DNA of 64,000 nt from Prosthecobacter sp. (GTDB lineage: Bacteria; Verrucomicrobiota; Verrucomicrobiia; Verrucomicrobiales; Verrucomicrobiaceae): positions 62,001 through 126,000 of the forward strand of contig JABARQ010000011.1 in NCBI GenBank assembly GCA_019186985.1, given 5' to 3'. Shown in pieces: positions 26,854 through 46,654 of this stretch (position 1 is its first letter; each line of letters starts with the position of its first letter). The notes under the pieces were generated by a model that worked only from the letters and a program-made list of their open reading frames with translations, ran no database searches and had not been told where the DNA came from. The position numbers were made by a program, and so were the translations under genes.

Positions 26854-27906
26854 ATGAAGCAAAGTTTGTTCTGCCTCCTCCTTCTCCTGCCGCCGTCCGT
26901 CCAGGCCCAGATCACCTCGCAAACCGACGAACGGCTGAAGGCGGGGCTGAAAAAGTTTCCCGAGGCGGATGCCGACAAGGACGGCGTCCTGACGCTTCCC
27001 GAGGCCATGGCCCACCTGGCGAAGCGCAAAAAGAAAAGCACACCGGATACAGCCGTGGCCGGAGGCCTGCAGCCGGACGTCAGGGACGTGGCCTATGGGG
27101 CGCATGAACGCTGCAGGCTGGACCTTTACCTCGCCAAGGAGGCCGCCCGGCCGACTCCGCTGGTGGTGATGATTCACGGCGGCGGATTCCGCAATGGTGA
27201 CAAGGGCAGGTGGGCCGCCGACAAGACCACCCGGGAGCTGGTTGCCAGGGGCGTCTCCTGCGCGGCGGTGAACTATCCCTTCCTCGACCACATGCCCGTC
27301 CAGGACATCCTGAGGCAGTGCGCCAGGGCCGTGCAGTTTCTGCGTCACCGGGCAGGCGAATGGAATCTCGACAAGGCACGCTTTGCCGCGATGGGTGGTT
27401 CGGCCGGTGCCGGCACATCGCTCTGGCTGGCGACCCGTGACGATCTCCGCGACCCGGCTGCCGCCGATCCCGTGCTTCGTGAATCCACCCGGCTGAGCTG
27501 CGCCGTCTGCAATTCCACTCAGGCCACCTATGACGTGTCACGCTGGGAGTCCTTCCTGGGCAGGCCGGGCCCCGAGGTGCGCACCAGCGAGGCTGAGGCG
27601 GCGCTCTTCTATCATCTGCCCTCCATCGAGGCCTTTGCGACCGATGCGGGCAGGGCCATCCTGAAGGAGTGTGACATGCTCTCGTGGATCACCAGGGATG
27701 ATCCGCCGCTGTATGTCAGCAACCCCCAGGTGGTCGATTCACCCTCCAACCGCGGCGAGTGGCTGCATTGCATCCATCATGCGCGTGAAGTCGGCCGCGA
27801 ATGCAAGGCCGACGGCGTCGAGTGCATCGTGTTTCAGGACCAGCCTGAGCCGAGGCCCGGCGTGGTGGAGTTTCTCTCGAAGCATCTGCTGGAAGCCGCC
27901 CGCTGA
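26854..27906 (+). CDS. Exported alpha/beta-hydrolase with an EF-hand
   Basis: About 350 residues with signal peptide MKQSLFCLLLLLPPSVQAQ. A single EF-hand-like calcium loop, DADKDGVLTLPE, lies at about residues 34-45. The alpha/beta hydrolase then shows the oxyanion motif MIHGGGFRNGD and the nucleophile elbow GGSAGAG. Its sequence around EWNLDKARFAA resembles the second half of the fusion protein at 791-3232, so the two share ancestry. It probably de-esterifies a polymer. The start at 26854 opens the signal peptide. The PSD1 gene follows after 37 bases and may be co-transcribed. Confidence 0.85.
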   Translation: MKQSLFCLLLLLPPSVQAQITSQTDERLKAGLKKFPEADADKDGVLTLPEAMAHLAKRKKKSTPDTAVAGGLQPDVRDVAYGAHERCRLDLYLAKEAARPTPLVVMIHGGGFRNGDKGRWAADKTTRELVARGVSCAAVNYPFLDHMPVQDILRQCARAVQFLRHRAGEWNLDKARFAAMGGSAGAGTSLWLATRDDLRDPAAADPVLRESTRLSCAVCNSTQATYDVSRWESFLGRPGPEVRTSEAEAALFYHLPSIEAFATDAGRAILKECDMLSWITRDDPPLYVSNPQVVDSPSNRGEWLHCIHHAREVGRECKADGVECIVFQDQPEPRPGVVEFLSKHLLEAAR

Positions 27907-27943
27907 AAGAGCGCGTGCAGCCCTGCCGTTTGCGTTTCGCCCC

Positions 27944-30793
27944 ATGAGAAAAGCCCTTCTGATCACCGGTCTCCTGCTCGTTCCGATGCTGGAGCCGGCC
28001 TTCACGGCCAGCGCCGAGAAGGAGGCGTTTTTTGAAAAGCGCATCCGCCCGCTGCTGGTGGAGCACTGCATGGAATGTCACGGGCCTGACAAGCAGAAAG
28101 GCAGCCTGCGCCTGGATCATCAGGCCGGCTGGAAGGCGGGCGGGGACTCCGGCCCGGCCATCCTTCCCGGCAGTCTGGAGGAAAGCCTGCTCTGGCGTGC
28201 GGTGAGCTACGAAGACCGTGACTTGAAGATGCCGCCCAGGAAGCGCCTTTCGGATGCCGAGCTGGCCGATCTGCGGGAATGGATTGCGTCAGGGGCGCAT
28301 GATCCGCGGCTTGAGGCAGGCGGAGGTGCGGGCAAGGGGTCCCAGCCGAAGGTGGACGGCAGCTTCTGGTCCTTCCAGCCACCCGTCATCAAGCCGCACC
28401 CTTCTGTCAAAAACGCCTCCTGGGTGGTGAACCCGGTTGACCGTCACATCCTGGCCCGGCTGGAGGCCGAGGGCATGAAGCCGGCGCCTGATGCCGAACC
28501 CACAGTGCTGCGGAGGCGGCTCGCCTTTGACCTCACGGGCATGCCTCCGGCCCCGGATGCCCTGAAGGACGGCGACATCGCCGCCTATGTGGACGGGCTG
28601 CTTGCCTCGCCCGCGTTCGCCGAGCGCTGGGCCTCCCACTTCATGGACATGACGCGCTTTGCCGAATCCTCGGGCGGCGGCAGGTCCCTGCCGTTCAAGG
28701 ACGCCTGGCGCTTCCGCGACTATCTGATCGAGTCCATCCGTGACAACATCCCGCTCGACCGCATGATCACCGAGATGATCGCGGGCGACGTGCTGCCCCA
28801 TGCCGACGCCGCCCAGCGACGGCGGCAGGTCACGGCCACGGGCTTCCTGGCGCTTGGCCCAACGAATTATGAGGAGCAGGACAAGGGCATGCTGCGCATG
28901 GACATCGTGGACGAGCAGCTTGAGACCATCGGCCGGTCCTTCCTGGGCATGACCCTCGGCTGCGCCCGCTGCCACGACCACAAGTTTGACCCCATCCCGA
29001 CGCGAGACTACTACGCCCTGGCCGGGATCCTGAGGAGCACGAAGACGCTGAAGAACTACACTGACAACGTCGCGCACTGGATTGACACGCCTCTGCCGTT
29101 TGACGGGGCCGAGGAGGCCCGGCTGGTGGAGCTGGAGAAGGCGACCGCCGCCGTGGAAAAGGAGGTCGCGCTGCTGAAGGACCAGCTTCGGGACGCGGGC
29201 AGCGTGGCGCTGCGGAGGAAGAAGCAGCTGGCCGCCGGCGACCTGCCGGGCGTCGTGGTGGATGATGTGGATGCGCAGAAGGTCGGGGACTGGAAGTCCT
29301 CCAGCCGCTACCCTCCGTTCATTGGCGGCGGCTACCTGCATGATGACAATCAGGGCAGGGGGGAGAAGACCCTCACCTTTTCACCGAAGCTGCCCGTGGC
29401 GGGGCGTTATGAGGTGCGCGTGGCCTTCAGCGGAGGGCCCGGGCGTGCCGAGCGGGTGCCTGCGACCGTGCTGCATGCCGACGGCGAGGACCTTGTCTAT
29501 TTCAAGCAGGCGACGGAGGCGCTGGACGGGCTGCAGTTTGCCACGATCGGCACCTGGCGGTTCGAGTCTGGCGGACAGAACTTTGTCATGATTTCCAACG
29601 CCGGGGCGGAGGGTTATGTGACCGTGGACGCCGTGCAGTTCCTGCCTGCCGAGGCAGGCATGCCCGACATGCCGGCGCAGAAGGTCAGCGAGGAGGAGAG
29701 GGGCCTGCGCAGCCGCCTGGCCGAGCTGGAAAAGAAGCTGAAGGAGATCCGCGGGGCGGGTGGGCCGTCACGCCCCGAAGTCATGAGCGTCGCGGAGGAC
29801 GAGAAGCCCGAGGACGCCCGCATTCACATCCGCGGCAGCATCAGGAACCTGGGTGCCGTGGTTCCGCGCGGATTCATCCAGGTGGCTTCGCGGGGGAGGA
29901 TGCCGGAGATTTCAAGCGGGCAGAGCGGCCGGCTGCAGCTCGCGCAGTGGATCACCTCGCGCGACAATCCGCTGACGGCGCGCGTGCTTGTGAACCGCGT
30001 CTGGCACTGGCTTTTCGGAGCCGGGCTGGTGCGCACCACGGACAACTTTGGAAGCACGGGCGAGATGCCTTCGCATCCTGAGCTGCTTGATGAACTTGCG
30101 GTCAGGTTCATGGAGGACGGCTGGAACCTCAAGCGTCTGGTCAGGGAGCTGGTGCTGAGCCGCGCCTACCGCCAGGACAGCCAGGGAGCCGGCAGGCATG
30201 ACAAGGACCCCGACAACCGGCTGCTGTCACGCATGAACCGCAAGAGGCTGGACGCCGAATGCATCCGTGATGCCATGCTTGCCGCCGCAGGCACGATGGA
30301 CGCCAGCTTCGGCGGGCCGAACGTTGGCGGCGCCACGAAGGTGGACTCGAACGACCAGAAGGTGCAGAACCTTGAATACGCCTTCACCTTTGATGACACG
30401 AGGCGCAGCGTCTACACGGCGGCCTTCCGCAACGTGCGGCATCCGCTTTTTGAAGTCTTCGACTTCGCGGACATCAACCAGCCGATCAGCCAGCGCACCA
30501 CCAGCACCGTTGCCACCCAGGCCCTGTTCCTGATGAATCATCCGAAGGTGATCGAGCAGGCGCGGGCGGCCGCCGGCCGTGTGCTGCGGGAGACTGGCGC
30601 CATGTCTGAGCGCATCCAGAACGCCTACCAGCATTCGCTGGGCCGGAAACCAAGCGCGCAGGAGGCAGGCATTGCCGCCGACTACCTGGAGGCCACGATT
30701 TCCGGAAATGCCGATGCTTCGGAGATTCGCGATGCCTGGGCCAGGTTCATCCAGACCCTGTGGGCGACGCCGGAATTCCGGTTCGTACGCTGA
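27944..30793 (+). CDS. Exported PSCyt1-PSCyt2-PSD1 (DUF1549/DUF1553) protein with golvesin-like domain
   Basis: About 949 residues with a signal peptide. Residues about 25-120 form a Planctomycete cytochrome C domain with CMECH at 42-46. The DUF1549 part follows and includes a second heme-type site, CARCH, at 340-344. Around residues 440-568 a beta domain (YPPFIGGGYLHDD, VAGRYEVRVAFSG, GYVTVDAVQF) resembles the golvesin C-terminal/xanthan-lyase fold and may bind carbohydrate. DUF1553 (SRDNPLTARVLVNRVWHWLFG to the C-terminus) ends the protein. These proteins are thought to be periplasmic and redox-linked, but no reaction is established. The start at 27944 opens the signal. Confidence 0.88.
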   Translation: MRKALLITGLLLVPMLEPAFTASAEKEAFFEKRIRPLLVEHCMECHGPDKQKGSLRLDHQAGWKAGGDSGPAILPGSLEESLLWRAVSYEDRDLKMPPRKRLSDAELADLREWIASGAHDPRLEAGGGAGKGSQPKVDGSFWSFQPPVIKPHPSVKNASWVVNPVDRHILARLEAEGMKPAPDAEPTVLRRRLAFDLTGMPPAPDALKDGDIAAYVDGLLASPAFAERWASHFMDMTRFAESSGGGRSLPFKDAWRFRDYLIESIRDNIPLDRMITEMIAGDVLPHADAAQRRRQVTATGFLALGPTNYEEQDKGMLRMDIVDEQLETIGRSFLGMTLGCARCHDHKFDPIPTRDYYALAGILRSTKTLKNYTDNVAHWIDTPLPFDGAEEARLVELEKATAAVEKEVALLKDQLRDAGSVALRRKKQLAAGDLPGVVVDDVDAQKVGDWKSSSRYPPFIGGGYLHDDNQGRGEKTLTFSPKLPVAGRYEVRVAFSGGPGRAERVPATVLHADGEDLVYFKQATEALDGLQFATIGTWRFESGGQNFVMISNAGAEGYVTVDAVQFLPAEAGMPDMPAQKVSEEERGLRSRLAELEKKLKEIRGAGGPSRPEVMSVAEDEKPEDARIHIRGSIRNLGAVVPRGFIQVASRGRMPEISSGQSGRLQLAQWITSRDNPLTARVLVNRVWHWLFGAGLVRTTDNFGSTGEMPSHPELLDELAVRFMEDGWNLKRLVRELVLSRAYRQDSQGAGRHDKDPDNRLLSRMNRKRLDAECIRDAMLAAAGTMDASFGGPNVGGATKVDSNDQKVQNLEYAFTFDDTRRSVYTAAFRNVRHPLFEVFDFADINQPISQRTTSTVATQALFLMNHPKVIEQARAAAGRVLRETGAMSERIQNAYQHSLGRKPSAQEAGIAADYLEATISGNADASEIRDAWARFIQTLWATPEFRFVR

Positions 30794-32517: not shown

Positions 32518-33693
32518 ATGAACCGTCGACACCTTCTCGCCACGCTGCCAGCCGCCCTTGCCTCCATGCCCGCCCTTGCCTCCGGGAAAAAGTGGCGGGT
32601 GGGTGTGATCGGACACACCGGACGCGGCAATTACGGTCACGGACTGGACACCATGTGGCTGCGGATTCCGGAGGCTGAGATCGCCGCCGTGGCGGATGCC
32701 GACGCCGGCGGCCTTGAGGCGGCCCGTAAGAAGCTCGGTGCCGGGGCCGGTTATGATGACTACCGCCGGATGCTGGAGGAGGCCAGGCCGGAGATCGTGG
32801 CCATCGGCCCGCGTCACATCGACCAGCACCATGAGATGACGCTGGCCTGCGTGAACGCGGGGGTGAGGGGCATCTACATGGAGAAGCCGTTCTGCCGCAC
32901 GCTCCAGGAGGCGGACGAGATGGTGGCCGCCTGTGACAGGGCGGGCGTGAAGCTAGCCCTGGCGCATCGCAACCGTCAGCATCCGGTGATGCAGGTGGTG
33001 GCAAAATTGGTCCGGGAAGGCCTGGTTGGACGCGTGCTGGAGATGCGCGGACGTGGCAAGGAGGACGCCCGGGGCGGTGCGCTGGACCTCTGGGTTCTGG
33101 GATCCCACGTGCTCAACATGGCCGCCTATTTCGGCGGCGATCCTGTGGCCTGCGACGCTGTGGTGAAGCAGGACGGCAGGCTGGTGGCCAGGGCGGATGT
33201 GAAGGAGGGGGACGAGGGCATCGGCCCCCTGGCCGGCAACGAGGTGCATGCCCGTTTTGAATTCGCCGACGGGCTCATGTTCTACTTTGATTCGATCAAG
33301 GATGCCGGTGTGCGCGAGGCGGGCTTCGGACTTCAGATCATCGGCACCAAGGGTGTCATTGACTTTCGGGCGGACAAGGAGCCTCTGGTGCACCTGCTGC
33401 CAGGCAGTCCGTTCCAGCCCGCTGCACAGCCGCGCCAATGGGTTCCCATCAGCAGCGGTGGAGTCGGCAAACCCGAGCCCGTCGCCGACCTGGCCCGGCT
33501 TCTGTCGAGCCACGAACTCGCCGGCCGAGACCTCATGGCGTCCATCGAGCAGAACCGCCCACCGCTCTGCGATGCGGTGCAGGGACGTCAGACGGTGGAG
33601 ATGATCAGCGCGGTTTTTGAGTCGCACCGTCTTGGCGGACAGCGGGTGGAGTTTCCTCTCAAGACGCGGGTGAATCCGCTGACACTGCTTTGA
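32518..33693 (+). CDS. Exported Gfo/Idh/MocA family oxidoreductase
   Basis: About 391 residues. The N-terminus MNRRHLLATLPAALASMPALA is a signal of Tat type. The NAD(P)-binding Rossmann fold begins WRVGVIGHTGRGNYG, and YMEKPFCRT contains the catalytic Lys of the EKP motif. The C-terminal domain has the family's beta sheet. Substrates in this superfamily are sugars, amino sugars or inositols; exported members are frequent in Verrucomicrobiota and their cofactor source is uncertain. The start at 32518 opens the signal. Confidence 0.86.
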   Translation: MNRRHLLATLPAALASMPALASGKKWRVGVIGHTGRGNYGHGLDTMWLRIPEAEIAAVADADAGGLEAARKKLGAGAGYDDYRRMLEEARPEIVAIGPRHIDQHHEMTLACVNAGVRGIYMEKPFCRTLQEADEMVAACDRAGVKLALAHRNRQHPVMQVVAKLVREGLVGRVLEMRGRGKEDARGGALDLWVLGSHVLNMAAYFGGDPVACDAVVKQDGRLVARADVKEGDEGIGPLAGNEVHARFEFADGLMFYFDSIKDAGVREAGFGLQIIGTKGVIDFRADKEPLVHLLPGSPFQPAAQPRQWVPISSGGVGKPEPVADLARLLSSHELAGRDLMASIEQNRPPLCDAVQGRQTVEMISAVFESHRLGGQRVEFPLKTRVNPLTLL

Positions 33694-33701
33694 GGCAGGC
33701 G

Positions 33702-35693
33702 TCAGCGCAGCCTCAGCGTCTGGCCGCCGGGAATGAGGGCCTTGGCGTGCTCGATCAGGGCGAGGGTCTGCTTGTCATCGGGCTGGATGGCGGCGGACTG
33801 CCTCAGGTGGTCGAGGGCCAGGTGGGCAAGCCCTTTCCGGTAATAGACCAGCCCGGCGGCCTTGAGCACCTGGGCATCCTTGGGATTGACGGCCAGCATG
33901 TTCTTGAAGATTTCCAGCGCCTCATCGTGGCGTCCGACGCCGGTGAGGCCGAGCCCCAGGGTGTAGGCCACGGGCAGCTTGCGGGCGTTGTTCTGATCGA
34001 GGTCAATGAGCTTCAGGGTGACTTCCAGGGACTCCTGGGGCCTGTTGAGGCGCAGCAGGGAGTTGGACAGGTTGAAGATGCCGTTTTGAAAGTTTGGCTC
34101 GATTTTCAGGGCGGTGCGAAAGCATTCGACCGCCTTCTCCTCCTTGCCTGCGGAGGAGTAGGCCACGCCCAGGTTCCCCCAGGTTCGGAACTTGCCCGGG
34201 CTCTTGGCCGCCGTGTCCTTCCAGAGGCTTTCATCCGTGCTCCAGACCAGGTTGCGCTGGCAGGTCCTCCAGGAAAGCAGGCCGAGGACCAGGGCGACTG
34301 CGGCGGGTGCGACGGCCCTTGTCCAGGGGCGGAGCGCGGGCAGGTGGCAGCGGGCGAGGTCCAGCAGGCAGGCAAAGATGACGAAGATGCCGATGGAGGG
34401 CAGGTAGCTGCGATGCTCCGCCACCATGTCGGGCAGGGGCACGAGGCCCGAGGAGATCGAGATGGTGGCAAAATACCAGACGACGCAGACGAAGACCAGG
34501 GCGGGCCTTGCTTCATCACGGTGGCGGCGCATCCACCAGCCGGTGGAGGCTAGGAGAGCCAGGATGCCTGCCTGCGCGGCCATGACTGGCGCCTGGAGCA
34601 GCGACTGGTAGCGCGGCCATTCCGGGTCGAGGTTGAGTCCGAACGGCCAGAACATCAGGCGGATGTAATGCATCACCACGGTGAGCTGGGTGGCGATGTA
34701 ATGCAGGTGGTCGAGCGGGGCGTCCCGGGAGTTGACGATGTTGAACGACTCACGCAGGTCGAACTGGCCGTTGTTCATGATGCTGGATGTCAGCAGCACC
34801 AGCATGGGGATGATCGGTGAAAGCGCGAGAAGGAAGACAGACCTGCGCAGGGCCTTGAAGAAGGCGGTGCCGAGCAGCAGCCAGTCAAGAAGCACGGCCA
34901 TGAAGGGGGCGGCAAAGCTGCATTCCTTGGTCTGCATGGCCAGCAGCATCGAGATCACGGCCGCAGCCTCCAGGAGGAAGGCGGCCCAGCCGCGCCGGCC
35001 GGGCTTCAGGGAGGAAAAGTGCAGCCAGAGGGAAAGCAGGACAAACAGGGTGGCCAGGGAGGTGAAGCGCTGGATGATGTAGGTCACCGACTCGATGGCG
35101 AGCGGATGCACGGCGAAGATGAGGGCCGCGACCGCCGGGATGAAGAGGCGGGATCCTTCGCCGATCCTCAGCGATGAGCCGCGCAGCAGCGTGCCGAACA
35201 GGGCGCAGACCAGGGCGCTGTTGAAGCCGTGGATCACGATGTTCACGGCGCGGAACCAGCGCGGCGTGAATCCGTCGAGCGCCTCGTTGATGGCGAAGGT
35301 CGCATAGGCGACGGGACGGAGGACGAAGTTGACCGCATAATCCGGGTCGACCCCGATGCTGGCGGGGCGGAGCACGAACTCCTTGAACTGCAGCAGGTAG
35401 GAGAACTTGCCTGGATCCCTGAAGACAGGGTTGTCGACCAGGTAGGTGTAGTCGTCGAAGACCATCGGGAAGTCGAGCGTCCACGCATAGAGCGCAAGGC
35501 TGGCAAGGAGGGCGGAGGCGGCGGACAGGCCGGGGACCCACTTCCAGGGCCGGCTGCGGGCGGGTGCCGGCGCTTCGACGGGGACCTCGCTGACGGCGGC
35601 GGCCGGGGCGGCGTCGGCGCAGGAAGGGCGGTCATGGGCTGCGTCAGCGGGCTGAGCGTGACGCCGGGCGGGCTTGCGGCGGTGCTTGGACAT
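33702..35693 (-). CDS. TMTC-like GT-C membrane protein with C-terminal TPR repeats
   Basis: About 663 residues. After a charged Ala/Pro-rich N-terminus, around ten membrane segments extend to about residue 460. The first extracytoplasmic loop contains MVFDDYTYLVDNPVF, a diacidic motif like that of GT-C glycosyltransferases, especially the eukaryotic TMTC O-mannosyltransferases. VAEHRSYLPSIG later matches their conserved loop. The last 190 residues are TPR units (KFRTWGNLGVAYSSAGKEEKA, NFQNGIFNLSNSLLRLNRP, DAQVLKAAGLVYYRKG). Such proteins use polyprenyl-phosphate sugars. It lies 96 bases after the response regulator stop, so it may be the last gene of the glycan operon. The transferase role is inference. 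Confidence 0.75.
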   Translation of the reverse strand: MSKHRRKPARRHAQPADAAHDRPSCADAAPAAAVSEVPVEAPAPARSRPWKWVPGLSAASALLASLALYAWTLDFPMVFDDYTYLVDNPVFRDPGKFSYLLQFKEFVLRPASIGVDPDYAVNFVLRPVAYATFAINEALDGFTPRWFRAVNIVIHGFNSALVCALFGTLLRGSSLRIGEGSRLFIPAVAALIFAVHPLAIESVTYIIQRFTSLATLFVLLSLWLHFSSLKPGRRGWAAFLLEAAAVISMLLAMQTKECSFAAPFMAVLLDWLLLGTAFFKALRRSVFLLALSPIIPMLVLLTSSIMNNGQFDLRESFNIVNSRDAPLDHLHYIATQLTVVMHYIRLMFWPFGLNLDPEWPRYQSLLQAPVMAAQAGILALLASTGWWMRRHRDEARPALVFVCVVWYFATISISSGLVPLPDMVAEHRSYLPSIGIFVIFACLLDLARCHLPALRPWTRAVAPAAVALVLGLLSWRTCQRNLVWSTDESLWKDTAAKSPGKFRTWGNLGVAYSSAGKEEKAVECFRTALKIEPNFQNGIFNLSNSLLRLNRPQESLEVTLKLIDLDQNNARKLPVAYTLGLGLTGVGRHDEALEIFKNMLAVNPKDAQVLKAAGLVYYRKGLAHLALDHLRQSAAIQPDDKQTLALIEHAKALIPGGQTLRLR

Positions 35694-35789
35694 GGCGTTT
35701 CGGTGTTTTTGGTTATTCCTATCCTGCCATCCTCCCGGACTTTTGTGAAATGACAGGCCTCGTCACGGGCACCGCCACAACACGGGGCC

Positions 35790-36467
35790 TCACGAGCCGT
35801 GGTCGCGCACCCACTGGCCGGCGCGCAGGTAAAGCTCGGCGGCGCTGCGCAGGTTGAGCTTTTCCTTGATCCGGGCGCGGTAGGTTTCGACCGTGGATTC
35901 GCCAAGGCCGAGCGAATGCGCGATCTCGCGGGTGCTCTTGCCGCGTCCGAGCATCTGGAAGACCTCCAGCTCGCGGTCGGCCAGGGTTTCCATGCCCGCG
36001 ATCTCGGTGGCGGCGCGCTTCTTCGAGAAGCGTTCCAGGAGCTTCGTGGTCATCTTCCGGCTGGCATAGACCTCGCCGTTCATCACGCCGCGAACGGCCC
36101 TGACCACCTCGGCGGAGGCCTCGTTCTTGGTGATGTAGCCCTTGGCGCCGGCCCTGAGGGCACGCTCGGCGTACAGCTCCTCGTCATGCATGGAGAGCAC
36201 CAGCACGTTGACGCTGAGGCCCATGGCCTTGATGTCCTTGATGAGTTCAAGCCCGCTGGATCCGCGCAGGGTGATGTCCACGATGGCGATGTCAGGGTTC
36301 GTCTCGTGGATCAGCCGCATGGCGTCGCGGATGTTGTCCGCCTCGCCGCAGACCGACATGCCAAGCTCGCGGTTGATGAGCAGTCCGAGATGTTCCCGGA
36401 ACATGGGATGATCCTCGACCAGAAGCACCTTGCAGTGGCCGGCCGGTTTTTTTTCAGTGTTGTTCAT
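35790..36467 (-). CDS. NarL/FixJ-family response regulator
   Basis: About 225 residues. The receiver has VLLVEDHPMF, the phospho-acceptor Asp in IAIVDITLRG and KGYITKNE at the C-terminal end. The LuxR-type HTH contains the conserved RELEVFQMLGRG and GESTVETYRARIKEKLNL. It overlaps the kinase gene by 14 bases, so the pair is a co-translated two-component system. It is the sixth of six overlapping genes and likely controls their own transcription or envelope genes. Confidence 0.94.
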   Translation of the reverse strand: MNNTEKKPAGHCKVLLVEDHPMFREHLGLLINRELGMSVCGEADNIRDAMRLIHETNPDIAIVDITLRGSSGLELIKDIKAMGLSVNVLVLSMHDEELYAERALRAGAKGYITKNEASAEVVRAVRGVMNGEVYASRKMTTKLLERFSKKRAATEIAGMETLADRELEVFQMLGRGKSTREIAHSLGLGESTVETYRARIKEKLNLRSAAELYLRAGQWVRDHGS

Positions 36468-37545
36468 GGTGTTCGTCGGTGTTTCTGGCGAGGGGAAGAC
36501 GGCAGCAGACCGAAGTGCCCCCGCCGGGCCTGTTCTGGATGCTCATGTCGGCTCCGAGCATCTGGGCGCGGTAGCGCATGGTGCGCAGTCCCATGCCTGC
36601 CGGGGAGGCGTTGGAGGGCATGCCGGAGCCGTTGTCCTCGATCCGCATCTCCAGCACGGTTTCACCCAGGTGAAGGCCGATGATGATCTCGCGGGCCGCC
36701 CCGTGCCTGACGGCGTTTGCCACCGCCTCCTGGGCGATGCGGTAGAGGTGCATGGCGGCTTCGGGATCCTCCAGATGCACTTCGGCGGTCTCCTCCATCC
36801 GGATGCGCACGCCGGTCAGGCGGCTGGTGCTTCGGGCGAGGTCGGAGAGGGCGGCTGAAAGTCCGTTGCGGTCCACATGCACGGGAAAGATGCCGTGGGC
36901 GAGGTTGCGGGCCTCCAGCACGGCCTGCTGGATGGACTCCTCGATCATGATGGCGTCGTGCGCCTCGGGAATGGAGCGGGCCTGCAGCTCCTCCGCCAGC
37001 ACCCTGGCGGCGCAGCCGATGGCCGCGAGATGCTGGCAGAGGCCGTCGTGCAGGTCGCGCCCGATGCGCTGCTGCTCATGTTCGCTGACGCTGACGATGT
37101 CGGCCTCCAGCTGGCGGCGTTCCTCGAGCATCTGAATCCTCGCCGCATCCGCATCCTGCTTCTTGCGGGCGGCCATGATGGCAAAGACCACCACGCCGAA
37201 GTAGAACTCGCGGTTGAACAGCGCCCAGGTGTAGCCAAGCTGGGTTTCATAGGGGTGGGTGTCACGGTTGGCGAACCACCAGACGGCCCCGGCCAGGCCG
37301 GTGACGATGAGGCCGGCGGCGATCCCGTCCCACCAGACGGCGATCACGATGGGGACGGCGTAGAAGATGAAGAGGCTCACCTCCCAGCCGGTGACATCAT
37401 CCATCCACCCCATGATGAGCGTGATGAACAGGGGCGGCAGGATGGAAAGCCAGCGGGGCTGCCTGCGCATGAATGTTGTCAGTTCGGACCAGGTGTGCCA
37501 GACGGAGCGTTCGGCGCCTGGGGGGCTTGGGGCGGGGGGAGTCAT
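36454..37545 (-). CDS. Membrane sensor histidine kinase (HisKA_3 / NarX class)
   Basis: About 363 residues. Three or four hydrophobic segments in residues 30-130 form an integral-membrane sensor (ILPPLFITLIMGWM, VSLFIFYAVPIVIAVWW, FYFGVVVFAIMAA) with very short loops, so it may sense a membrane-embedded signal. EEERRQLEADIVSVSEHEQQRIGRDLHDGLCQHL contains the phospho-acceptor His of the HisKA_3 class. The ATPase has AVANAVRHG (N box) and MRIEDNGSGM (G1). The start ATG overlaps the ketoisomerase stop by four bases (ATGA). Confidence 0.93.
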   Translation of the reverse strand: MTPPAPSPPGAERSVWHTWSELTTFMRRQPRWLSILPPLFITLIMGWMDDVTGWEVSLFIFYAVPIVIAVWWDGIAAGLIVTGLAGAVWWFANRDTHPYETQLGYTWALFNREFYFGVVVFAIMAARKKQDADAARIQMLEERRQLEADIVSVSEHEQQRIGRDLHDGLCQHLAAIGCAARVLAEELQARSIPEAHDAIMIEESIQQAVLEARNLAHGIFPVHVDRNGLSAALSDLARSTSRLTGVRIRMEETAEVHLEDPEAAMHLYRIAQEAVANAVRHGAAREIIIGLHLGETVLEMRIEDNGSGMPSNASPAGMGLRTMRYRAQMLGADMSIQNRPGGGTSVCCRLPLARNTDEHHEQH

Positions 37546-38009
37546 GCTTGGGAGGTCTGAAGTTCTTCCGTGGACGCCAGGGTCAGAAAGCGCCGGTAGT
37601 CATGAATGTAATCCCTGGCTTCATACGGATGGGAGGCAAGCACGAGCAACGCTGAATCCGCAGTCCGGTGATGCACCCGCGTCCAGGTCAGCGGAGGAAT
37701 CAGCAGCCCGAGCGTCGGGCGGTCGAGGTGAAACACGTCCTGATGCAGGCCGTCGTCCAGGCTGACATCACAGCAGCCGCTGACGCAGACGACGAACTGG
37801 GAGCAGCAGAGATGCGCATGATCCCCCCGCACCTGGCTGGCCGGAATGGCGTAGGTGATGAAGTAACGGCAGGGGATGAAGGGCAGGTCGTCGCTGAACT
37901 CCGCCATGGTCAGGTTGCCGCGGACCGGATCCGCCACATGACGCATTTCAAACCTGCGCACCCCCCTGACGAGGCTCTGGCCGGCGACGGGCTGGAGATC
38001 CCGGATCAT
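37542..38009 (-). CDS. FdtA/QdtA-type (WxcM-like) sugar 3,4-ketoisomerase
   Basis: About 155 residues with a cupin fold. The family marks are RGDHAHLCCSQFVVCVSG, with the active-site His pair, and the C-terminal LVLASHPYEARDYIHDYRRFL, typical of FdtA and QdtA. These enzymes convert dTDP-4-keto-6-deoxyglucose to the 3-keto isomer, the substrate for a DegT-type 3-aminotransferase, and such an enzyme is encoded in the same operon. No dTDP-glucose synthase or dehydratase gene is seen in this window. Both flanking junctions are 4-base overlaps. Confidence 0.85.
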   Translation of the reverse strand: MIRDLQPVAGQSLVRGVRRFEMRHVADPVRGNLTMAEFSDDLPFIPCRYFITYAIPASQVRGDHAHLCCSQFVVCVSGCCDVSLDDGLHQDVFHLDRPTLGLLIPPLTWTRVHHRTADSALLVLASHPYEARDYIHDYRRFLTLASTEELQTSQA

Positions 38010-38974
38010 GCCGCAGCCCCTCCTTGCACGGGATGATGTTCAACGCTTCTCACAAACGACTGCGGCTTGCCCGAGATGGTGAGGAAGGCGCGGCCGACAT
38101 ATTCGCCGATGATGCCGAGCATGAGGAGCTGGGCGCCGCTGAAGACCGTCAGCGCCCCCATCAGGGACGCCCACCCGGCCTGCTGCCTGCCCAGCAGCGC
38201 CATTTCCAGCACGACCTCGGCCATGATCGCCAGCCCCAGCAGGCAGAGCAGCACGCCAAGCACGCTGGCGATGCGCAGGGGCATGACGCTGAAGTCACAG
38301 AGCACGGTCAGGGCCAGCCGGACGAGCTTGCGCGGAGTATAACCACTTTTGCCGGAAGCCCTTCCGGCGTGGGCGACCTTGAGCCGGGTGATCCGGTTGG
38401 TGGCGCCCAGGATCATCCCGTCGATGTAAGGATAGGGTCCCCGGTAGCCGGTGATGCGCTCCAGCAGCTCACGCCGCATGGCGCGGAAGCTCGACAGGTA
38501 GAGGTCCTGCGGCTTGTTCAGCAGGTACGAGGCGCAGGCGTTGACAACACGGCTGCCCAGGTTGCGGAACCAGTGATGCTTCTTCTCCTCATAGTACGAG
38601 TAGGCCACGTCGGCACCGCTGGACATGAGGTGTTCCGCCAGCCGAAGGGCCTCGGCGGGAGGGTTCTGCAGGTCGTCGTCGAGGCAGACGACGTGCTTTC
38701 CGGAGCTTCGCCGGCAGCCTTCCAGGACGGCGGCGTGTTCGCCATAGTTCCTGGCCAGCCGCACGCAGGTGATGGGGGCGGGAAAGTCCGATGGCAGATG
38801 GTTCAGGCGGACGGATGTGTCATCCGTGCTGCCGTCGTCGACCAGCACCAGCTCCCACGCATGGGCGCAGTTCAGCGCACGGAACGCATCAAGCAGGAGT
38901 GAAAGCGTCGGACCGGTGTTGTAGAGGGCGACAACGAAGGACAGTTCAATGGTGGCTGGCGCGTGATGGTTCAC
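38006..38974 (-). CDS. Family 2 glycosyltransferase, polyprenyl-phosphate (ArnC/DPM1-like)
   Basis: About 322 residues. The GT2 domain shows VVALYNTGPTLSLLL, LVLVDDGSTDDT and CLDDDLQNPPAEAL, as in undecaprenyl-phosphate and dolichol-phosphate glycosyltransferases. Two C-terminal hydrophobic segments (VLGVLLCLLGLAIMAEVVLEM and LMGALTVFSGAQLLMLGII) anchor it, and GEYVGRAFL is typical of this subgroup. It probably loads the modified sugar on undecaprenyl phosphate. The start is a GTG at 38974: an AAGGAGG sequence lies about seven bases upstream and the GTGA overlap matches the neighbouring junctions. The frame extends upstream without protein character. Confidence 0.88.
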   Translation of the reverse strand: MNHHAPATIELSFVVALYNTGPTLSLLLDAFRALNCAHAWELVLVDDGSTDDTSVRLNHLPSDFPAPITCVRLARNYGEHAAVLEGCRRSSGKHVVCLDDDLQNPPAEALRLAEHLMSSGADVAYSYYEEKKHHWFRNLGSRVVNACASYLLNKPQDLYLSSFRAMRRELLERITGYRGPYPYIDGMILGATNRITRLKVAHAGRASGKSGYTPRKLVRLALTVLCDFSVMPLRIASVLGVLLCLLGLAIMAEVVLEMALLGRQQAGWASLMGALTVFSGAQLLMLGIIGEYVGRAFLTISGKPQSFVRSVEHHPVQGGAAA

Positions 38975-39738
38975 AGGCGTCCTCCTTTCCCTGGCGTCCC
39001 GGCTTTTCTGGCGACGGCAAAGACGGAGGAGCCGAAGGGAATGTGCAGGCTGCGGCAGGCCTGCACGTCCATCACGCCAATGCCGTAGAGCAGGTTTGCC
39101 AGCCAGGCGGGCTGCAAGGTGAGGTCTGACTTCAATTCCTGCTGCGGATGCCGCTGGTTCCGGCTGACCTGACGCCAGAGCAGCATCGGCAGGAAGGGCC
39201 AGGCGTTCCAGTAATGCGAGCACACCCCTTCAAATCCGTGATGTGCGAGCTTCGCCCCGATCTCGCCGGCCTGGTAGCGCCGCGCGCCCTGGACGGCGTC
39301 GTCGTGTGATCCCCGCAGGCAGTTGAAGGCAGGCAGGTTGACCACCAGCCAGCCTCCGTTCTTCAGGACACGGTTCATTTCCGCCAGGGCCCTGGATTCC
39401 TCGACGGCTTGATGGTAAAGGACGTCCAGGCTCAGGACCATGTCGAAGAACCCGGCCTCGAAGGGCATGTCGTGCAGCGAGCCCTCGACCGCGGGAACTC
39501 CCCGTTCATGGCAATGCCTGACGGCGGCCTGCGAATGGTCCAGGCCGCTGAGAGCCAGGCCCGAGGCGTGCTTTTGCAGATGCCTGAGCATGCCTCCCGT
39601 GCCGCAGCCGGCGTCCAGCAGGCGGCCGCATCCCCTCAGCTTTTCTTCGACCACCCGCATGACCTGTCCACGCAGAAGGCGGTACCACCAGTGGTGGTCC
39701 TCGACGCTTCTGAGCAGGTCATATTCAGCGGCATTCAT
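38971..39738 (-). CDS. Class I SAM-dependent methyltransferase
   Basis: About 255 residues. The SAM-binding motif LLDAGCGTGGMLRHL is at about 40-54, followed by ALSGLDHSQ, MVLSLDVLYH and an NGGWLVVNLPAF strand. The fold is that of general class I methyltransferases. In amino-deoxysugar clusters such enzymes N- or C-methylate the 3-amino sugar, so that role is possible here. The C-terminus (SLHIPFGSSVFAVARK) is also seen in envelope glycan methyltransferases. It overlaps both neighbours by four bases. Confidence 0.82.
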   Translation of the reverse strand: MNAAEYDLLRSVEDHHWWYRLLRGQVMRVVEEKLRGCGRLLDAGCGTGGMLRHLQKHASGLALSGLDHSQAAVRHCHERGVPAVEGSLHDMPFEAGFFDMVLSLDVLYHQAVEESRALAEMNRVLKNGGWLVVNLPAFNCLRGSHDDAVQGARRYQAGEIGAKLAHHGFEGVCSHYWNAWPFLPMLLWRQVSRNQRHPQQELKSDLTLQPAWLANLLYGIGVMDVQACRSLHIPFGSSVFAVARKAGTPGKGGRL

Positions 39739-40853
39739 GACAGGGTGAATTCAATGACATCGCAGACGCCATGAACCGCCTCATCGGAAAGATGAGGGTG
39801 CAGGGGCAGGGAAAGGACTTCGCGCACGGCTTCTTCCGAACATGGGAAATGCCTGTCCTGGGCAAAGGCAGGCTGGCGGTGAAGGGGCACGGGATAATGA
39901 ACCGCCACCGGCACTCCGGCGGCCTTCAGCGGCGTCAGCAGCCGGTCCCGGTTGGTGCAGCGCACCACATATTGATGGTAGACATGCTCACAACCGGGCC
40001 TCACCACCGGGGTGGCGATGCCGAGGAGGCCGCCCAGTCTGGCATCGTAAACCGCCGCCAGCTGCCTGCGCCGAAGGGTCGCTGCATCCAGCCTGGCGAG
40101 CTTGACCCTGAGCATGGCGGCCTGCAGCTCATCCAGGCGGCTGTTGATCCCATCCTCCCCACTGATGTGCCGTTCCTTCCAGCCATACTGCCGGAGTCTG
40201 GAAAAGCGCTCGGCGAGCCCGGCGTCATCCGTGGCCACCGCACCGGCATCACCCAGCGCGGCCAGGTTCTTGGTGGGGTAAAAGCTGAACACCGAGGCCC
40301 GGCCCAGCGTGCCGGTCATCCTGCCCTGCCAGAGGGCGGCATGGGATTGGGAGGCATCTTCGAGCAGCATGGCCCCATGGTTTCGGGCCAGTTCCAGCAA
40401 GGCTCCCAGTTCGGCCGGATGACCATAGAGATGAACGGCCAGCACGGCCCTGACCCGGCCTGGCCGTTGCTGTTTCAGCACCTCGGCGACGGACTCGGGA
40501 CAAAGCGTGAAGGTGTTTTGATCGATGTCGGCGAAAACAGGCTCGGCACCGGCCCGACGAACCCCGGCGGCCACGGCCGACGGGGCATGCGCAGGCAGCA
40601 GGACGGCGCTGCCTGCCCGTATGTCCAGGGCGCGCAGCATGAGCTCGATGCCGTCCGTGCCGTTGGCGGTGCCGGTCACATGCCCGATGCCGAGGTAGCG
40701 GGCGAACTCTTGTTCGAAGGCCTTCGTCTCATTTCCAAGGATGTAATGACCGCTTTCCAGCACCCGTTGGGCCGCCTCAAAAAGCTCGCCGCCACAGCTC
40801 CGCTGATCCGCGAGGGGATAGGGCGGAAACAGGTGGTGCAGGCTGCGGCTCAT
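39735..40853 (-). CDS. DegT/DnrJ/EryC1 family sugar aminotransferase
   Basis: About 372 residues. The PLP-dependent fold shows HVTGTANGTDGIELMLRAL, AVHLYGHPAE, LLEDASQSHAALW and SFYPTKNLAALGDAGA, where the Lys binds PLP. Members place an amino group on a keto-sugar nucleotide; beside an FdtA/QdtA-type isomerase the likely product is a 3-amino-3,6-dideoxyhexose (inference). The start at 40853 gives MSRSLHHLFPPYPL and leaves the inverted-repeat cluster at 40871-40903 upstream; in-frame starts at 40874 and 40898 are possible. It is the first gene of the operon. Confidence 0.87.
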   Translation of the reverse strand: MSRSLHHLFPPYPLADQRSCGGELFEAAQRVLESGHYILGNETKAFEQEFARYLGIGHVTGTANGTDGIELMLRALDIRAGSAVLLPAHAPSAVAAGVRRAGAEPVFADIDQNTFTLCPESVAEVLKQQRPGRVRAVLAVHLYGHPAELGALLELARNHGAMLLEDASQSHAALWQGRMTGTLGRASVFSFYPTKNLAALGDAGAVATDDAGLAERFSRLRQYGWKERHISGEDGINSRLDELQAAMLRVKLARLDAATLRRRQLAAVYDARLGGLLGIATPVVRPGCEHVYHQYVVRCTNRDRLLTPLKAAGVPVAVHYPVPLHRQPAFAQDRHFPCSEEAVREVLSLPLHPHLSDEAVHGVCDVIEFTLS

Positions 40854-40870
40854 GGGGCATTCTGAACGCC

Positions 40871-40903
40871 TCATTTCATGTGGCAAATGACGCCACATGT
40901 GGC
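40871..40903. promoter_or_regulatory. Nested inverted-repeat operator candidate before the glycan operon
   Basis: Three overlapping symmetric elements occur. The half-site catgtggc at 40877-40884 is inverted as gccacatg at 40892-40899; tcattt at 40871-40876 is inverted as aaatga at 40885-40890; and gccacatgtggc at 40892-40903 is a perfect 12-base palindrome. The cluster ends 18 bases before the DegT start. It looks like a dimeric regulator site, perhaps for the operon's own response regulator. Confidence 0.5.
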
Positions 40904-41106
40904 GGTTTCCACTACCCGGTAAAAACAGAGGTACACTGGCTGATTGAACGGGTTTTCTGGCTGGGCTTCAGGACAACCCGTCGTTCTCAGCCCTGAGCCT
41001 GGCGTTCTTGCCAGTCTGGAAATTCCGCTGGATTTCCCCCTGCCTCCGTTCACACTCGCTGCCCCCGTTTATTCGAAATAACTCCGCCCCAACCAGCAAC
41101 ACCTCC

Positions 41107-44025: not shown

Positions 44026-45531
44026 TCAGCGTCTGCGTTGTTTCTGCCGCCGCGAAGTTTTCTTCGCGGCGGTTTTTTGTGTCCTGGGGCTGACCTTGGC
44101 CTTGGAGGTCGCAAGCCTGTCGCGGATCTGCTTCAGCACATAGAGGCAGGCCATGAGGGCTGAGATCATCTGGACGATGACCGTTGAGAGCGCGATGCCC
44201 GCGGTGCCCAGCGGACGCATTAGCACCCAGTTCAGCAGGGCGTTGCCCACCAGGCCGACCGTGGAAAGCAGCATGATGAAACGGGTCGCCTGCATGGCCA
44301 CCACCACGCGCGAAGCCAGGCTGCCGATGATGTAAAAGGGAATCTGCAGGGCGGCAAAACGCAGTACGGCAGCCACACGCGCCGTGTCCTCCGGGGTGAA
44401 GGAGCCGCGCTCGAAGAGCAGCCAGATCACCCAGGGAGCCAGCGCACAGAGCAGCAGCGCTGCCGGCAACGCAACGCTTAGGATCATCACCGCACTGGTG
44501 AAAAGCTGCTGCCGAACGCCCAGCCAGTCACGTCGCGCCACCTTGTCGGCGAAGTAAGGAAACAGCACATCGCAGCTCGGCCCCGCCGTGACCGCCAGGA
44601 TGATGCCGCAGACCTTGTCCGTGTAGCTGAGCACCGTCACGCTCCCGGCTTCCAGCCAGGATGCCATCGTCTGATCCACCACCACCGCGCTGCTGAAGAT
44701 GCCGCCGGCAAACAGGAAGGGCAGGGAATTCTGCACCACTTTCTTCAGCTCTGGCTCAGCCCGGCTCAGGCACCCCACCACGAAGCCTGCCGACAGGGCT
44801 TCCTTTCTCCACAGGACCAGGATCAGGACCAGCAGATGCAGCAGGGCGCCCGCGACCGTGCCGGAGACGAGAAGCTGCACATCGGGCTGGGTCCGGCCCG
44901 CCACCAGCCAGCCCAGGATCGCCAGAGGCACCAGCATCGGGGCCGCCGTGGCCGCCAGGAACTGTTTGTCGGCCCGCAGCCAGGTGCCCAGCTGGTAGCT
45001 CAGGCCGAACGACAGCATGAAGGGCAGCAGGTCGCGCAGCAGCCTGCTCGACAGCTCCTGCTTTTCCGGTGAGAAACCGCGTGTGGTCCAGGCCACGATG
45101 GAGGGGGCCAGCAGGTAGATGACCAGGCCCACCGCCAGCAGGCTGAGTCCATGCACCAGGCTGCTTTGCACCGCCAGACGCCTTGCCCGCAGGGCATCCT
45201 TCTGATGGGTGACCTCGGCAAACTGCGGCAGGAAGGCCTCCGGCAGCCCGCCACCGATCAGCGCTGCGACAAAGGTCAGCAGCCCGAAGGAGAACATGAA
45301 GGCGTCCAGCTCATCGCTGATGCCGAACTGCCTTGCCACCGCCGCGTCCTTGAGGAAGGAAACCGCCTTGGAAGCCACGGTCAGCACCGCCACCAGGACA
45401 AACCCCGACACCATGCGCGACCCCAGCGCCTTTTGGAGCAACGGCCGCAGCCGGGTGGTCAGTTGGGAGAAGACGGGATGCAAAACATCGGAAACATAGG
45501 AGCCGCAGCCTGACGCGGCAAGGGTTAGCAT
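44026..45531 (-). CDS. murJ: MurJ-family lipid II flippase (MviN)
   Basis: About 501 residues with 12-14 hydrophobic segments. The protein belongs to the MurJ/MviN group of the MOP exporters: KAVSFLKDAAVARQFGISDELDAFMFSF near the N-terminus and the SLPFLFAGGIFSS and GPSCDVLFPYFAD segments are family-like. It moves lipid-linked precursors across the membrane; a role for another lipid-linked glycan is possible, since the glycan operon ends about 3 kb away. The basic C-terminus (KKTSRRQKQRRR) is coded by a sequence that also forms a strong terminator for the opposite strand. The start at 45531 is an ATG. Confidence 0.86.
   Translation of the reverse strand: MLTLAASGCGSYVSDVLHPVFSQLTTRLRPLLQKALGSRMVSGFVLVAVLTVASKAVSFLKDAAVARQFGISDELDAFMFSFGLLTFVAALIGGGLPEAFLPQFAEVTHQKDALRARRLAVQSSLVHGLSLLAVGLVIYLLAPSIVAWTTRGFSPEKQELSSRLLRDLLPFMLSFGLSYQLGTWLRADKQFLAATAAPMLVPLAILGWLVAGRTQPDVQLLVSGTVAGALLHLLVLILVLWRKEALSAGFVVGCLSRAEPELKKVVQNSLPFLFAGGIFSSAVVVDQTMASWLEAGSVTVLSYTDKVCGIILAVTAGPSCDVLFPYFADKVARRDWLGVRQQLFTSAVMILSVALPAALLLCALAPWVIWLLFERGSFTPEDTARVAAVLRFAALQIPFYIIGSLASRVVVAMQATRFIMLLSTVGLVGNALLNWVLMRPLGTAGIALSTVIVQMISALMACLYVLKQIRDRLATSKAKVSPRTQKTAAKKTSRRQKQRRR
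44047..44078 (+). terminator. Rho-independent terminator for the discoidin lipoprotein, inside murJ
   Basis: A perfect 11-base stem, ccgccgcgaag with its complement, has a four-T loop and is followed by six T on the plus strand. It lies 29 bases past the lipoprotein stop but entirely within the last codons of the convergent murJ gene. Confidence 0.88.
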
Positions 45532-45898: not shown

Positions 45899-46654
45899 AT
45901 GGCCCGATGCCCTTCTGAACCCCGGCGTAATCTCGCTCATGAGATCGCCTCCAAAATGCGTCGCGGCATCATTTCAGGCACGTTCAAGCCGGGTGAGGCG
46001 CTTGCGGAGCCGGCGCTGGCCGGGCGCTTCGGGGTTAGCCGAGCGCCTGTGCGTGAGGCGATGATCGAGTTGGAAAGAGCCGGGCTGGTTCAATTTGAGA
46101 TCACCGGCAGAACTCGCGTCAGGATGCTGGAGGAAAAAGACGTTGTTGAAATCGTCGAGGCGCGAATCGCGCTGGAGTCGATGGGGGCGCGGCTGGCGGC
46201 CGTCCGTTGGACCGATGAAGACACGCGATGGATCGAAAGAAGCATCACCGCCCAGCAGAAGGCGGCTTCGGGTGTGAAGTTCAGCGCCTTGGACATCGCC
46301 ATGCATGAATACATCATGAATCGCGGTGGCAATGATCGCCTGTTCACCCTATGGCAGTTCGTCCGCTGGCAGTTTGAGATGGCGCTGACACACATTCACA
46401 GCCTTCAGGAAACACAGGCCCCAGACCTCCGTTGCTTCAGCGTGACAGGGCACAGAAAGGTGCTGAAGGCCCTGGTTGAGCGCCAGCCTGAGATGGCCGC
46501 CAAAGTGATGTCCAGGCACATCAAAGACTCCATTGAATGGTATCCTGGCAAACGTCGGGGGCCATCTCGGCAATCGCGAGCCAGGATTGCGCTTCCCTGC
46601 AAAACGCGTGGGCACGCTGTGCCGGTGAACGTTCTCAACCCATTTTCGCAGTGA
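45899..46654 (+). CDS. GntR family transcriptional regulator, FCD (FadR) subfamily
   Basis: About 251 residues. The N-terminal winged HTH shows GIISGTFKPGEALAEPALAGRFGVSRAPVREAMIELERAGLV. The C-terminal FCD domain includes VVEIVEARIALESMGARLAA, ALDIAMHEYIMN and a late MSRHI, which supply the Asp/His residues that bind metal in this class. Ligands are often sugar acids or other carboxylates. The last 35 residues, basic and proline-rich, extend past the typical domain. The stop overlaps the GTG of the next gene (GTGA), so the regulator and the PSD1 gene are translationally coupled. Confidence 0.92.
   Translation: MARCPSEPRRNLAHEIASKMRRGIISGTFKPGEALAEPALAGRFGVSRAPVREAMIELERAGLVQFEITGRTRVRMLEEKDVVEIVEARIALESMGARLAAVRWTDEDTRWIERSITAQQKAASGVKFSALDIAMHEYIMNRGGNDRLFTLWQFVRWQFEMALTHIHSLQETQAPDLRCFSVTGHRKVLKALVERQPEMAAKVMSRHIKDSIEWYPGKRRGPSRQSRARIALPCKTRGHAVPVNVLNPFSQ

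Follow-up and report, generated by a model that had tools for sequence, protein, structure and literature searches.

A seven-gene operon of Prosthecobacter sp. as a candidate donor pathway for a TMTC-like glycosyltransferase

Which sugar is passed on by a TMTC-like glycosyltransferase encoded behind amino-sugar genes, onto which target, and under which control? The question is raised by a locus of Prosthecobacter sp. in the window, the whole stretch of 64,000 nucleotides analysed here (G000:C7:62001-126000; host genome 5.88 Mb). Open reading frame (ORF) calls place seven genes on the minus strand, 40853 -> 33702, with a DegT aminotransferase gene first and the TMTC-like gene last. The operon is proposed to attach a 3-amino-3,6-dideoxyhexose to a target outside the cytoplasm and to control itself, a proposal regarded as evenly poised on the evidence below.

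Organization and conservation of the operon

The first gene (39735..40853) encodes a DegT/DnrJ/EryC1 aminotransferase, probably acting on C3 (Pfam DegT, 333 bits; pyridoxal phosphate lysine K195). A class I S-adenosylmethionine-dependent methyltransferase follows (38971..39738; Pfam Methyltransf_11, generic relatives). The third gene, with a GTG start, encodes an ArnC/GtrB-like GT2 enzyme (38006..38974; Pfam Glycos_transf_2, matching ArnC chains), which is proposed to load undecaprenyl phosphate. The fourth product is a 3,4-ketoisomerase of the FdtA/QdtA type (37542..38009; Pfam FdtA, 139 bits versus a cut-off of 23; motif RGxHAH). A histidine kinase with a hydrophobic N-terminus (36454..37545; Pfam HisKA_3 and HATPase_c; H166) and a NarL/LuxR-type response regulator (35790..36467; Pfam Response_reg and GerE; D64) come next. 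The last gene (33702..35693) encodes the TMTC-like GT-C glycosyltransferase with C-terminal tetratricopeptide repeats (TPR), assigned by predicted fold and Pfam TPR. All seven are on the minus strand. Five junctions overlap, by 4, 4, 4, 4 and 14 bases as read off the sequence. The sixth is a gap of 96 bases between the regulator and the TMTC-like gene, in which a pattern scan revealed no terminator-like site. The original prediction, six overlapping genes and a TMTC-like gene 96 bases on, is accurate in coordinates, strand and all junctions. Pfam also agrees with its domain types for DegT, methyltransferase, GT2, FdtA, kinase, regulator and TPR.

FdtA relatives (E<=1e-10) were searched in 56 genomes, 35 of them from the same genus including the own genome. 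They occur in 25 of the 56 and in 21 of the 35 (own genome counted). FdtA neighbourhoods were retrieved at 20 loci of the same genus (L027-L045, L047), and 15 of them show the full seven-gene order, with DegT of L035 cut by a contig end. Two loci (L031, L047) match up to the contig ends. Two are rearranged: L044 reads TMTC-GT2-FdtA-kinase-regulator-TMTC, and L045 reads DegT-methyltransferase-TMTC, one extra gene, and GT2-FdtA-kinase-regulator. L037 looks decayed, with a kinase ORF of 144 aa and no TMTC-like gene. The divergent L164 keeps all seven genes in order, with DegT, methyltransferase, GT2, FdtA and TMTC-like protein just 29-39% identical. The anticipated conservation of gene order is thus found within the Verrucomicrobiaceae. 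FdtA loci from other families of the order (L046, L048-L050) showed neither kinase nor regulator nor TMTC-like gene, and DegT adjoins FdtA in three of the four.

The regulator is the best-conserved protein, with a mean identity of 80.4% (16 loci). The means of the other proteins range from 51.6% (TMTC-like) to 65.9% (GT2); these means omit eight loci, four of them distant and the other four cut or decayed. An arrangement kept in relatives whose proteins, the regulator apart, average ~52-66% identity is beyond chance. Junctions were surveyed in 19 loci picked from a scan of named genomes with the regulator alignment, which covered the best 80 of 86 loci; an earlier scan of genome contigs based on FdtA gave 25 pattern matches, none of which was confirmed. 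The start nearest to the preceding stop was chosen, which biases the survey to small overlaps. An exact 4-base overlap occurs in 17 of the 19 loci at the FdtA-kinase junction, extending the claimed coupling of the kinase to the sugar genes to relatives, and likewise in 17 at the GT2-FdtA junction. Kinase and regulator lie at most 20 bases apart in 16 of 18 loci, and the gap ahead of the TMTC-like gene ranges from 0 to 187 bases.

Co-occurrence of FdtA and TMTC-like genes was counted with thresholds for the latter of E<=1e-60 in the 35 same-genus genomes and E<=1e-50 in 16 whole-genome searches. In the same genus, 20 genomes hold both genes and 13 neither, and two are discordant, one each way (G021 and G002). 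The Fisher value of 1.3e-7 ignores relatedness and assembly gaps. Kinase, regulator and TMTC-like gene occur without a local sugar cassette in seven loci among the best 80 of 86 (L146, L150, L152, L160, L165, L167, L185); L165 starts at the kinase. The scan also yielded kinase-regulator pairs that have no TMTC-like gene. The 16 genomes searched as a whole derive from the regulator scan and include G002, G013, G006 and G047, so that 12 are further genomes. The seven genomes with the kinase-regulator-TMTC arrangement all hold an intact FdtA and an adjoining close GT2 elsewhere. In the eight genomes that lack a TMTC-like gene, an intact FdtA is missing as well, one of them retaining a remnant, and so is a close GT2, with a 31% relative in one. 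In the last, G068, TMTC-like gene, DegT, methyltransferase and GT2 are present, and FdtA is represented by a short stretch resembling its C-terminus (by eye). The 12 further genomes comprise seven with both FdtA and TMTC-like gene, the sugar genes being unlinked in each, five with neither and none that is discordant.

The methyltransferase gene sits at just one of two places in all seven split genomes. It precedes the kinase and is absent beside the cassette in G059, G060 and G062, and it stands beside the cassette and is absent before the kinase in G056, G064, G066 and G067. DegT accompanies GT2-FdtA in five of the seven unlinked cassettes. Judged by the unlinked co-occurrence and, as an independent sign, by the methyltransferase placement, the sugar genes act together with the methyltransferase and the TMTC-like gene as a single functional unit, whether or not they are split. 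The TMTC-like gene does lie downstream, as originally described, but it is an integral member rather than a mere follower, tracking FdtA and the close GT2 even where unlinked.

Remnants were seen in some loci. FdtA of L122 is a remnant, and L123 and L124 have lost the sugar genes, with FdtA-like remnants ahead of the kinase. The regulator is retained in all partial-loss loci (L122, L123, L124, L037). A second related kinase, 60-63% identical to that of the window, is located downstream of the operon in four loci (L033:13711-14841, L131:18118-19224, L136:19334-20440, L140:14245-15351); the stretch read near these kinases contains no matching second regulator.

Sugar synthesis, lipid loading and transfer

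Genes for RmlB (462 bits) and RmlA (406 bits), both above their cut-offs, adjoin on C40 of the own genome. Their products would provide dTDP-4-keto-6-deoxyglucose, on which FdtA would shift the keto group to C3. The nearest solved relatives of FdtA are the WxcM-like 4zu4 (129 bits) and 4mzu (127 bits), followed by 2pa7 (75 bits). The reference study names His49 and His51 as the catalytic histidines of FdtA, and states that His versus Arg at the His95 position separates inverting from retaining FdtA/QdtA enzymes (PMC2943079). The catalytic histidines are kept, H64 in 31 and H66 in all of 32 sequences. The His95 position, mapped by hand, is T110 in the window protein; the 32 sequences divide into 29 with A and 3 with T at this position. 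As the residue is neither His nor Arg, the rule for the C4 configuration is inapplicable.

The DegT protein, whose K195 is present in 26 of 26 sequences, would aminate C3. Its best match among solved chains is 7b0d (285 bits), named a glutamine-scyllo-inositol transaminase and not a 3-aminotransferase. It is followed by 2oga (275 bits), which we take to be DesV, QdtB (250 bits) and WbpE (234-237 bits). Perosamine synthetases reach 135-138 bits and ArnB 116-121 bits. QdtB, WbpE and 2oga are 3-aminotransferases. Their scores above ArnB and the perosamine synthetases favour amination of C3. The methyltransferase has 31 solved relatives, all generic by name, which do not tell N- from O-methylation. 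Its membership in the pathway is deduced from linkage; it would modify the 3-amino sugar product, giving a possibly methylated sugar.

The GT2 enzyme matches ArnC chains with 137-143 bits and sll0501, presumably GtrB, with 112 bits. The motif DDD at residues 99-101 is present in 32 of 32 sequences. With 158 bits versus 529, the enzyme misses the ArnC equivalog cut-off (NCBIfam PRK10714) and is, by sequence, ArnC-like, not ArnC. The ArnC-type loading step belongs to the arn pathway, and the GT2 enzyme may likewise load the sugar onto undecaprenyl phosphate. Two elements of the original prediction are supported here: the 3-amino sugar route, by a 3-aminotransferase-like DegT protein, kept FdtA histidines and the presence of RmlA and RmlB genes, and the ArnC-type GT2, by its similarity to ArnC chains.

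The structure of the TMTC-like protein was predicted with AlphaFold2 from 31 family members (mean predicted local distance difference test score, pLDDT, 89.8). Model residues ~45-500 align with the yeast Pmt1-Pmt2 chain 6p25_B (Z 19.7, root-mean-square deviation 4.1, 356 aligned residues), and the same stretch aligns with STT3 8agb_A (Z 20.6, deviation 4.9, 339 aligned). Residues ~500-660 are TPRs in the predicted structure. With the whole model as query, Foldseek listed 50 matches, most of them proteins with TPR or other helical repeats. PMT and STT3 emerged from a second structure comparison; ArnT was not among its 50 matches listed, which excludes nothing. The predicted PMT/STT3-like fold plus TPR agrees with the earlier description of a GT-C-like protein with TPR.

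Human TMTCs carry the motifs M1-M7, and the SHKSY part of M2 has been assigned to mannose, according to PMC7801869. A comparison by eye with these motifs, together with the predicted structure, supports a GT-C character of the last gene product. In 31 sequences, the DD is kept in 31, the R-P of M2 in 31, the K of M4 in 30, the E of M4 in 31, the D of M5 in 29, the R of M7 in 31 and the Y of M7 in 30. The SHKSY part is not conserved, and Thr (27), Ala (2) or Glu (2) stands in place of the M3 Asp. Both differences fit a GT-C enzyme with a donor other than mannose. Members from loci that have no cassette nearby show the motifs to the same degree, which is what supply from an unlinked cassette would predict.

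Once flipped, the lipid-linked sugar would be transferred by the TMTC-like enzyme to an acceptor at the surface, most probably a protein, which may be bound or selected by the TPR part. An alternative keeps the sugar pathway and the lipid loading and assigns the transfer to a lipid or polysaccharide, for instance lipopolysaccharide core, O-antigen or exopolysaccharide, in the manner of ArnT or Gtr, with the TPR part serving complex assembly. The ArnC and sll0501 pathways decorate glycolipids or polymers, and these two are the nearest relatives of the GT2 enzyme. The loci read, moreover, show no acceptor protein conserved beside the operon. The fold neighbours of the TMTC-like protein, on the other side, include the protein-modifying PMT and STT3, and its TPR part is as in human TMTCs, which does not decide the acceptor. 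Transfer to a lipid or polysaccharide is considered possible and rather unlikely.

The TMTC-like gene is followed immediately, in the same orientation, by a gene for a large protein at L150:12894-18908 (2004 aa) and L152:12980-13833 (cut by the locus end). These proteins have Asp-rich repeats, thrombospondin type 3-like by eye, and are candidate acceptors. In L185:10700-19155, kinase and regulator are followed by four tandem TMTC-like paralogues, 45-50% identical to the window protein, with the cassette at L246; diversification for different acceptors is possible. Large hydrophobic ORFs with a further GT-C-type look (by eye) lie upstream of the unlinked cassettes in L240:1885-7427 and L239:12147-13997.

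In the window, a gene for a MurJ-like flippase (44026-45531, minus strand; Pfam 191 bits) is located 3.1 kb upstream of the operon. The protein scores under the NCBIfam equivalog cut-off (188 versus 235.55). MurJ-like pieces precede DegT in L147:2365-3482, and the other cassette loci of the regulator scan are without them. Long ORFs with the CxxCH motif flank the region (27671-30793 and 46537-49779) and resemble, by eye, large cytochrome-like proteins known from planctomycetes and their relatives.

Regulation and weighing of the proposal

The phospho-acceptors of the two-component pair are conserved, H166 of the kinase in 50 of 50 and D64 of the regulator in 54 of 54 sequences. The regulator (E<=1e-60) was detected in all 21 same-genus genomes with FdtA, in 3 further same-genus genomes and in 2 from outside the genus. 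Co-translated with the pathway, the kinase may read an envelope or lipid-carrier signal via its hydrophobic N-terminus.

The conserved block CGCYACNNGTRGCGTYATTTGC lies ahead of the first gene. This 22-base palindromic element, the proposed regulator site, is present in the window as CGCCACATGTGGCGTCATTTGC (40883..40904, minus strand, 0 mismatches). Its closest form (centre RT) has one match in the window and none in 100 window shuffles, with up to 3 mismatches allowed. Four other matches exist in the own genome, each with 3 mismatches, which is on a par with the reversed control and its 3 matches. A search of the 56 genomes gave 16 sites with no more than 1 mismatch, each in a different genome and each at the head of this operon. 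The element precedes DegT in 14 of them and GT2 in the rearranged G028; in G013, which has lost the sugar genes, the kinase begins ~190 bases after it. At nine sites with 2 mismatches, DegT, GT2 and kinase are all absent from the downstream stretch available, which measures up to 1.5 kb. All 16 genomes with the element carry the regulator, and several more distant operons are without the element.

The simplest reading takes the element as a putative autoregulatory site of the regulator, and the co-translated two-component system probably autoregulates the operon, as far as sequence comparison goes. The regulator would bind the palindrome at the promoter and presumably drive the operon including itself; what the genomes show is that good copies of the element occur at this operon alone. 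A promoter-like sequence, TTGCCA-16-CAGAAT (40859..40886, minus strand), would give a nearly leaderless transcript. It is the sole such site in a scan of 33500-41100, one versus 1.1 expected by chance, and weak alone. An RNA stem or a strict dyad finds no support in compensatory changes; alignment columns 12 and 19 are asymmetrical in 4 of 14 copies.

A more specific form of the proposal describes a bacterial TMTC-type branch. Surface proteins would be tagged with a methylated 3-amino-3,6-dideoxyhexose linked to undecaprenyl phosphate, not with mannose, and the co-translated two-component system would sense the flux of lipid-linked sugar or acceptor in the membrane and act via one autoregulatory palindrome per genome. 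This form is offered tentatively and is held to be doubtful.

Several observations weigh against a self-controlled tagging operon. Residues 1-497 of the TMTC-like protein have no Pfam match; DUF1736 is not recognised up to E 5, hence the name TMTC-like and not TMTC, and the 25 families listed for the 31 members do not include it. The operon genes include no flippase gene. G002 keeps its TMTC-like gene without an intact FdtA, and two of the seven unlinked cassettes (L242, L246) show no DegT beside GT2-FdtA. Some absences may be assembly gaps, because completeness varies from 52 to 100% in the FdtA search and genomes reached via named loci carry no completeness figure; the co-occurrence counts treat related genomes as independent. 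The element is missing from 8 of the 24 same-genus genomes with the regulator and from the unlinked cassettes. It thus tracks the kinase-regulator operon, G013 included, and not the sugar genes. The regulator occurs without FdtA in G002, G006, G013, G043 and G047, and the pair without FdtA and TMTC-like gene in 8 of the 16 genomes searched. The pair is therefore not a dedicated regulator everywhere.

The strict form, a regulator solely for this pathway, is ruled out by the same genomes. What stands of the claimed own two-component system is a pair that overlaps and lies within the operon; its restriction to the pathway does not stand, as the pair also occurs without the pathway and outlives its loss, and it may have other duties. 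A reading of the element as a site of the sugar genes, wherever these lie, was likewise rejected, since the unlinked cassettes L239-L246 carry no copy of 0 or 1 mismatch immediately in front of DegT or the first cassette gene. L240 has one copy of the 14-base core with 1 mismatch, 300 bases before DegT and inside an upstream ORF.

These findings bear on a second alternative, according to which the pair has an older and wider role in envelope regulation and shares the transcript by accident, with the sugar operon as just one passenger, or another protein binds the palindrome. In other genera the pair is found by itself, it persists where the sugar genes have been deleted, and the regulator is far more conserved than the other operon proteins. 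Distant kinase-regulator pairs are also without the palindrome. A broad regulon is opposed by the element matches outside the operon, which in the own genome reach only control level, while the good sites of relatives all head the operon; the recurrent 4-base overlap of kinase and FdtA in 17 of 19 loci points the same way. This alternative is judged improbable. A chance neighbourhood of unrelated minus-strand genes is scarcely credible, being contradicted by conserved order, overlaps and genome-level co-occurrence even when unlinked, with nothing found in its favour.

Relation to known systems

In the proposed reading as a self-controlled tagging pathway, the operon could supply the donor for one defined family of bacterial TMTC-like proteins. 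No paper in an open-access library was found to give a bacterial TMTC-like protein (GT-C plus TPR) a donor or an acceptor. The co-occurrence despite unlinking represents a natural experiment, and the regulatory element has one good site per genome. The transferred group, its target and the timing of switching are testable, and the family has cultured members (Brevifollis gellanilyticus, L151).

The Gtr systems (GtrA, GtrB, Gtr) load one sugar on undecaprenyl phosphate by a GT2 enzyme, and a polytopic transferase passes it on. The GT2 enzyme of the operon is related to sll0501; the operon differs in lacking a GtrA-type flippase gene and in including sugar-synthesis and two-component genes. With the human O-mannosyltransferases TMTC1-4, as described in PMC7801869, the last gene product shares the GT-C part with C-terminal TPR and, by eye, the DD, R-P, K-E, D and R/Y positions. 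It differs by the missing DUF1736 match and, by eye, by SHKSY and the M3 Asp, which are not kept. It is tied to a deoxyamino-sugar pathway, in contrast to dolichyl-phosphate mannose in the human enzymes. In animals, enzymes of this type modify cadherins.

The S-layer glycan pathway with FdtA/QdtA and FdtB/QdtB leads to dTDP-Fuc3NAc and dTDP-Qui3NAc. Ketoisomerase, 3-aminotransferase and dTDP-4-keto-6-deoxyglucose are common to both, as far as PMC2943079 describes that pathway. The operon has a methyltransferase and no N-acyltransferase, and an ArnC-like GT2 and a TMTC-like enzyme replace the polysaccharide assembly system.

The nearest precedent is PmrA/PmrB with pmrCAB and arnBCADTEF in lipid A modification. 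PmrA/PmrB raises expression of pmrCAB and of the arn operon in enterobacteria, and for Acinetobacter baumannii the pmrCAB promoter is reported to be autoregulated (PMC4244539). Two-component genes in an operon with an envelope-modifying enzyme are common to both systems, and the GT2 enzyme here is similar to ArnC. The original prediction regarded the coupling of a lipid-linked sugar pathway with its regulator as undescribed. This was overstated, because pmrCAB/arn already pairs envelope modification with its own two-component genes. The operon is distinguished by a 3-amino-deoxyhexose route, a NarL-type regulator with a HisKA_3 kinase, a TPR-bearing GT-C protein and one overlapping transcript. 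As far as searches of an open-access library show, the union of this route with ArnC-like loading, a TMTC-like transferase and a NarL-type system in one overlapping transcript is new, as are the conservation of this combination in one bacterial family and its dedicated 22-base element.

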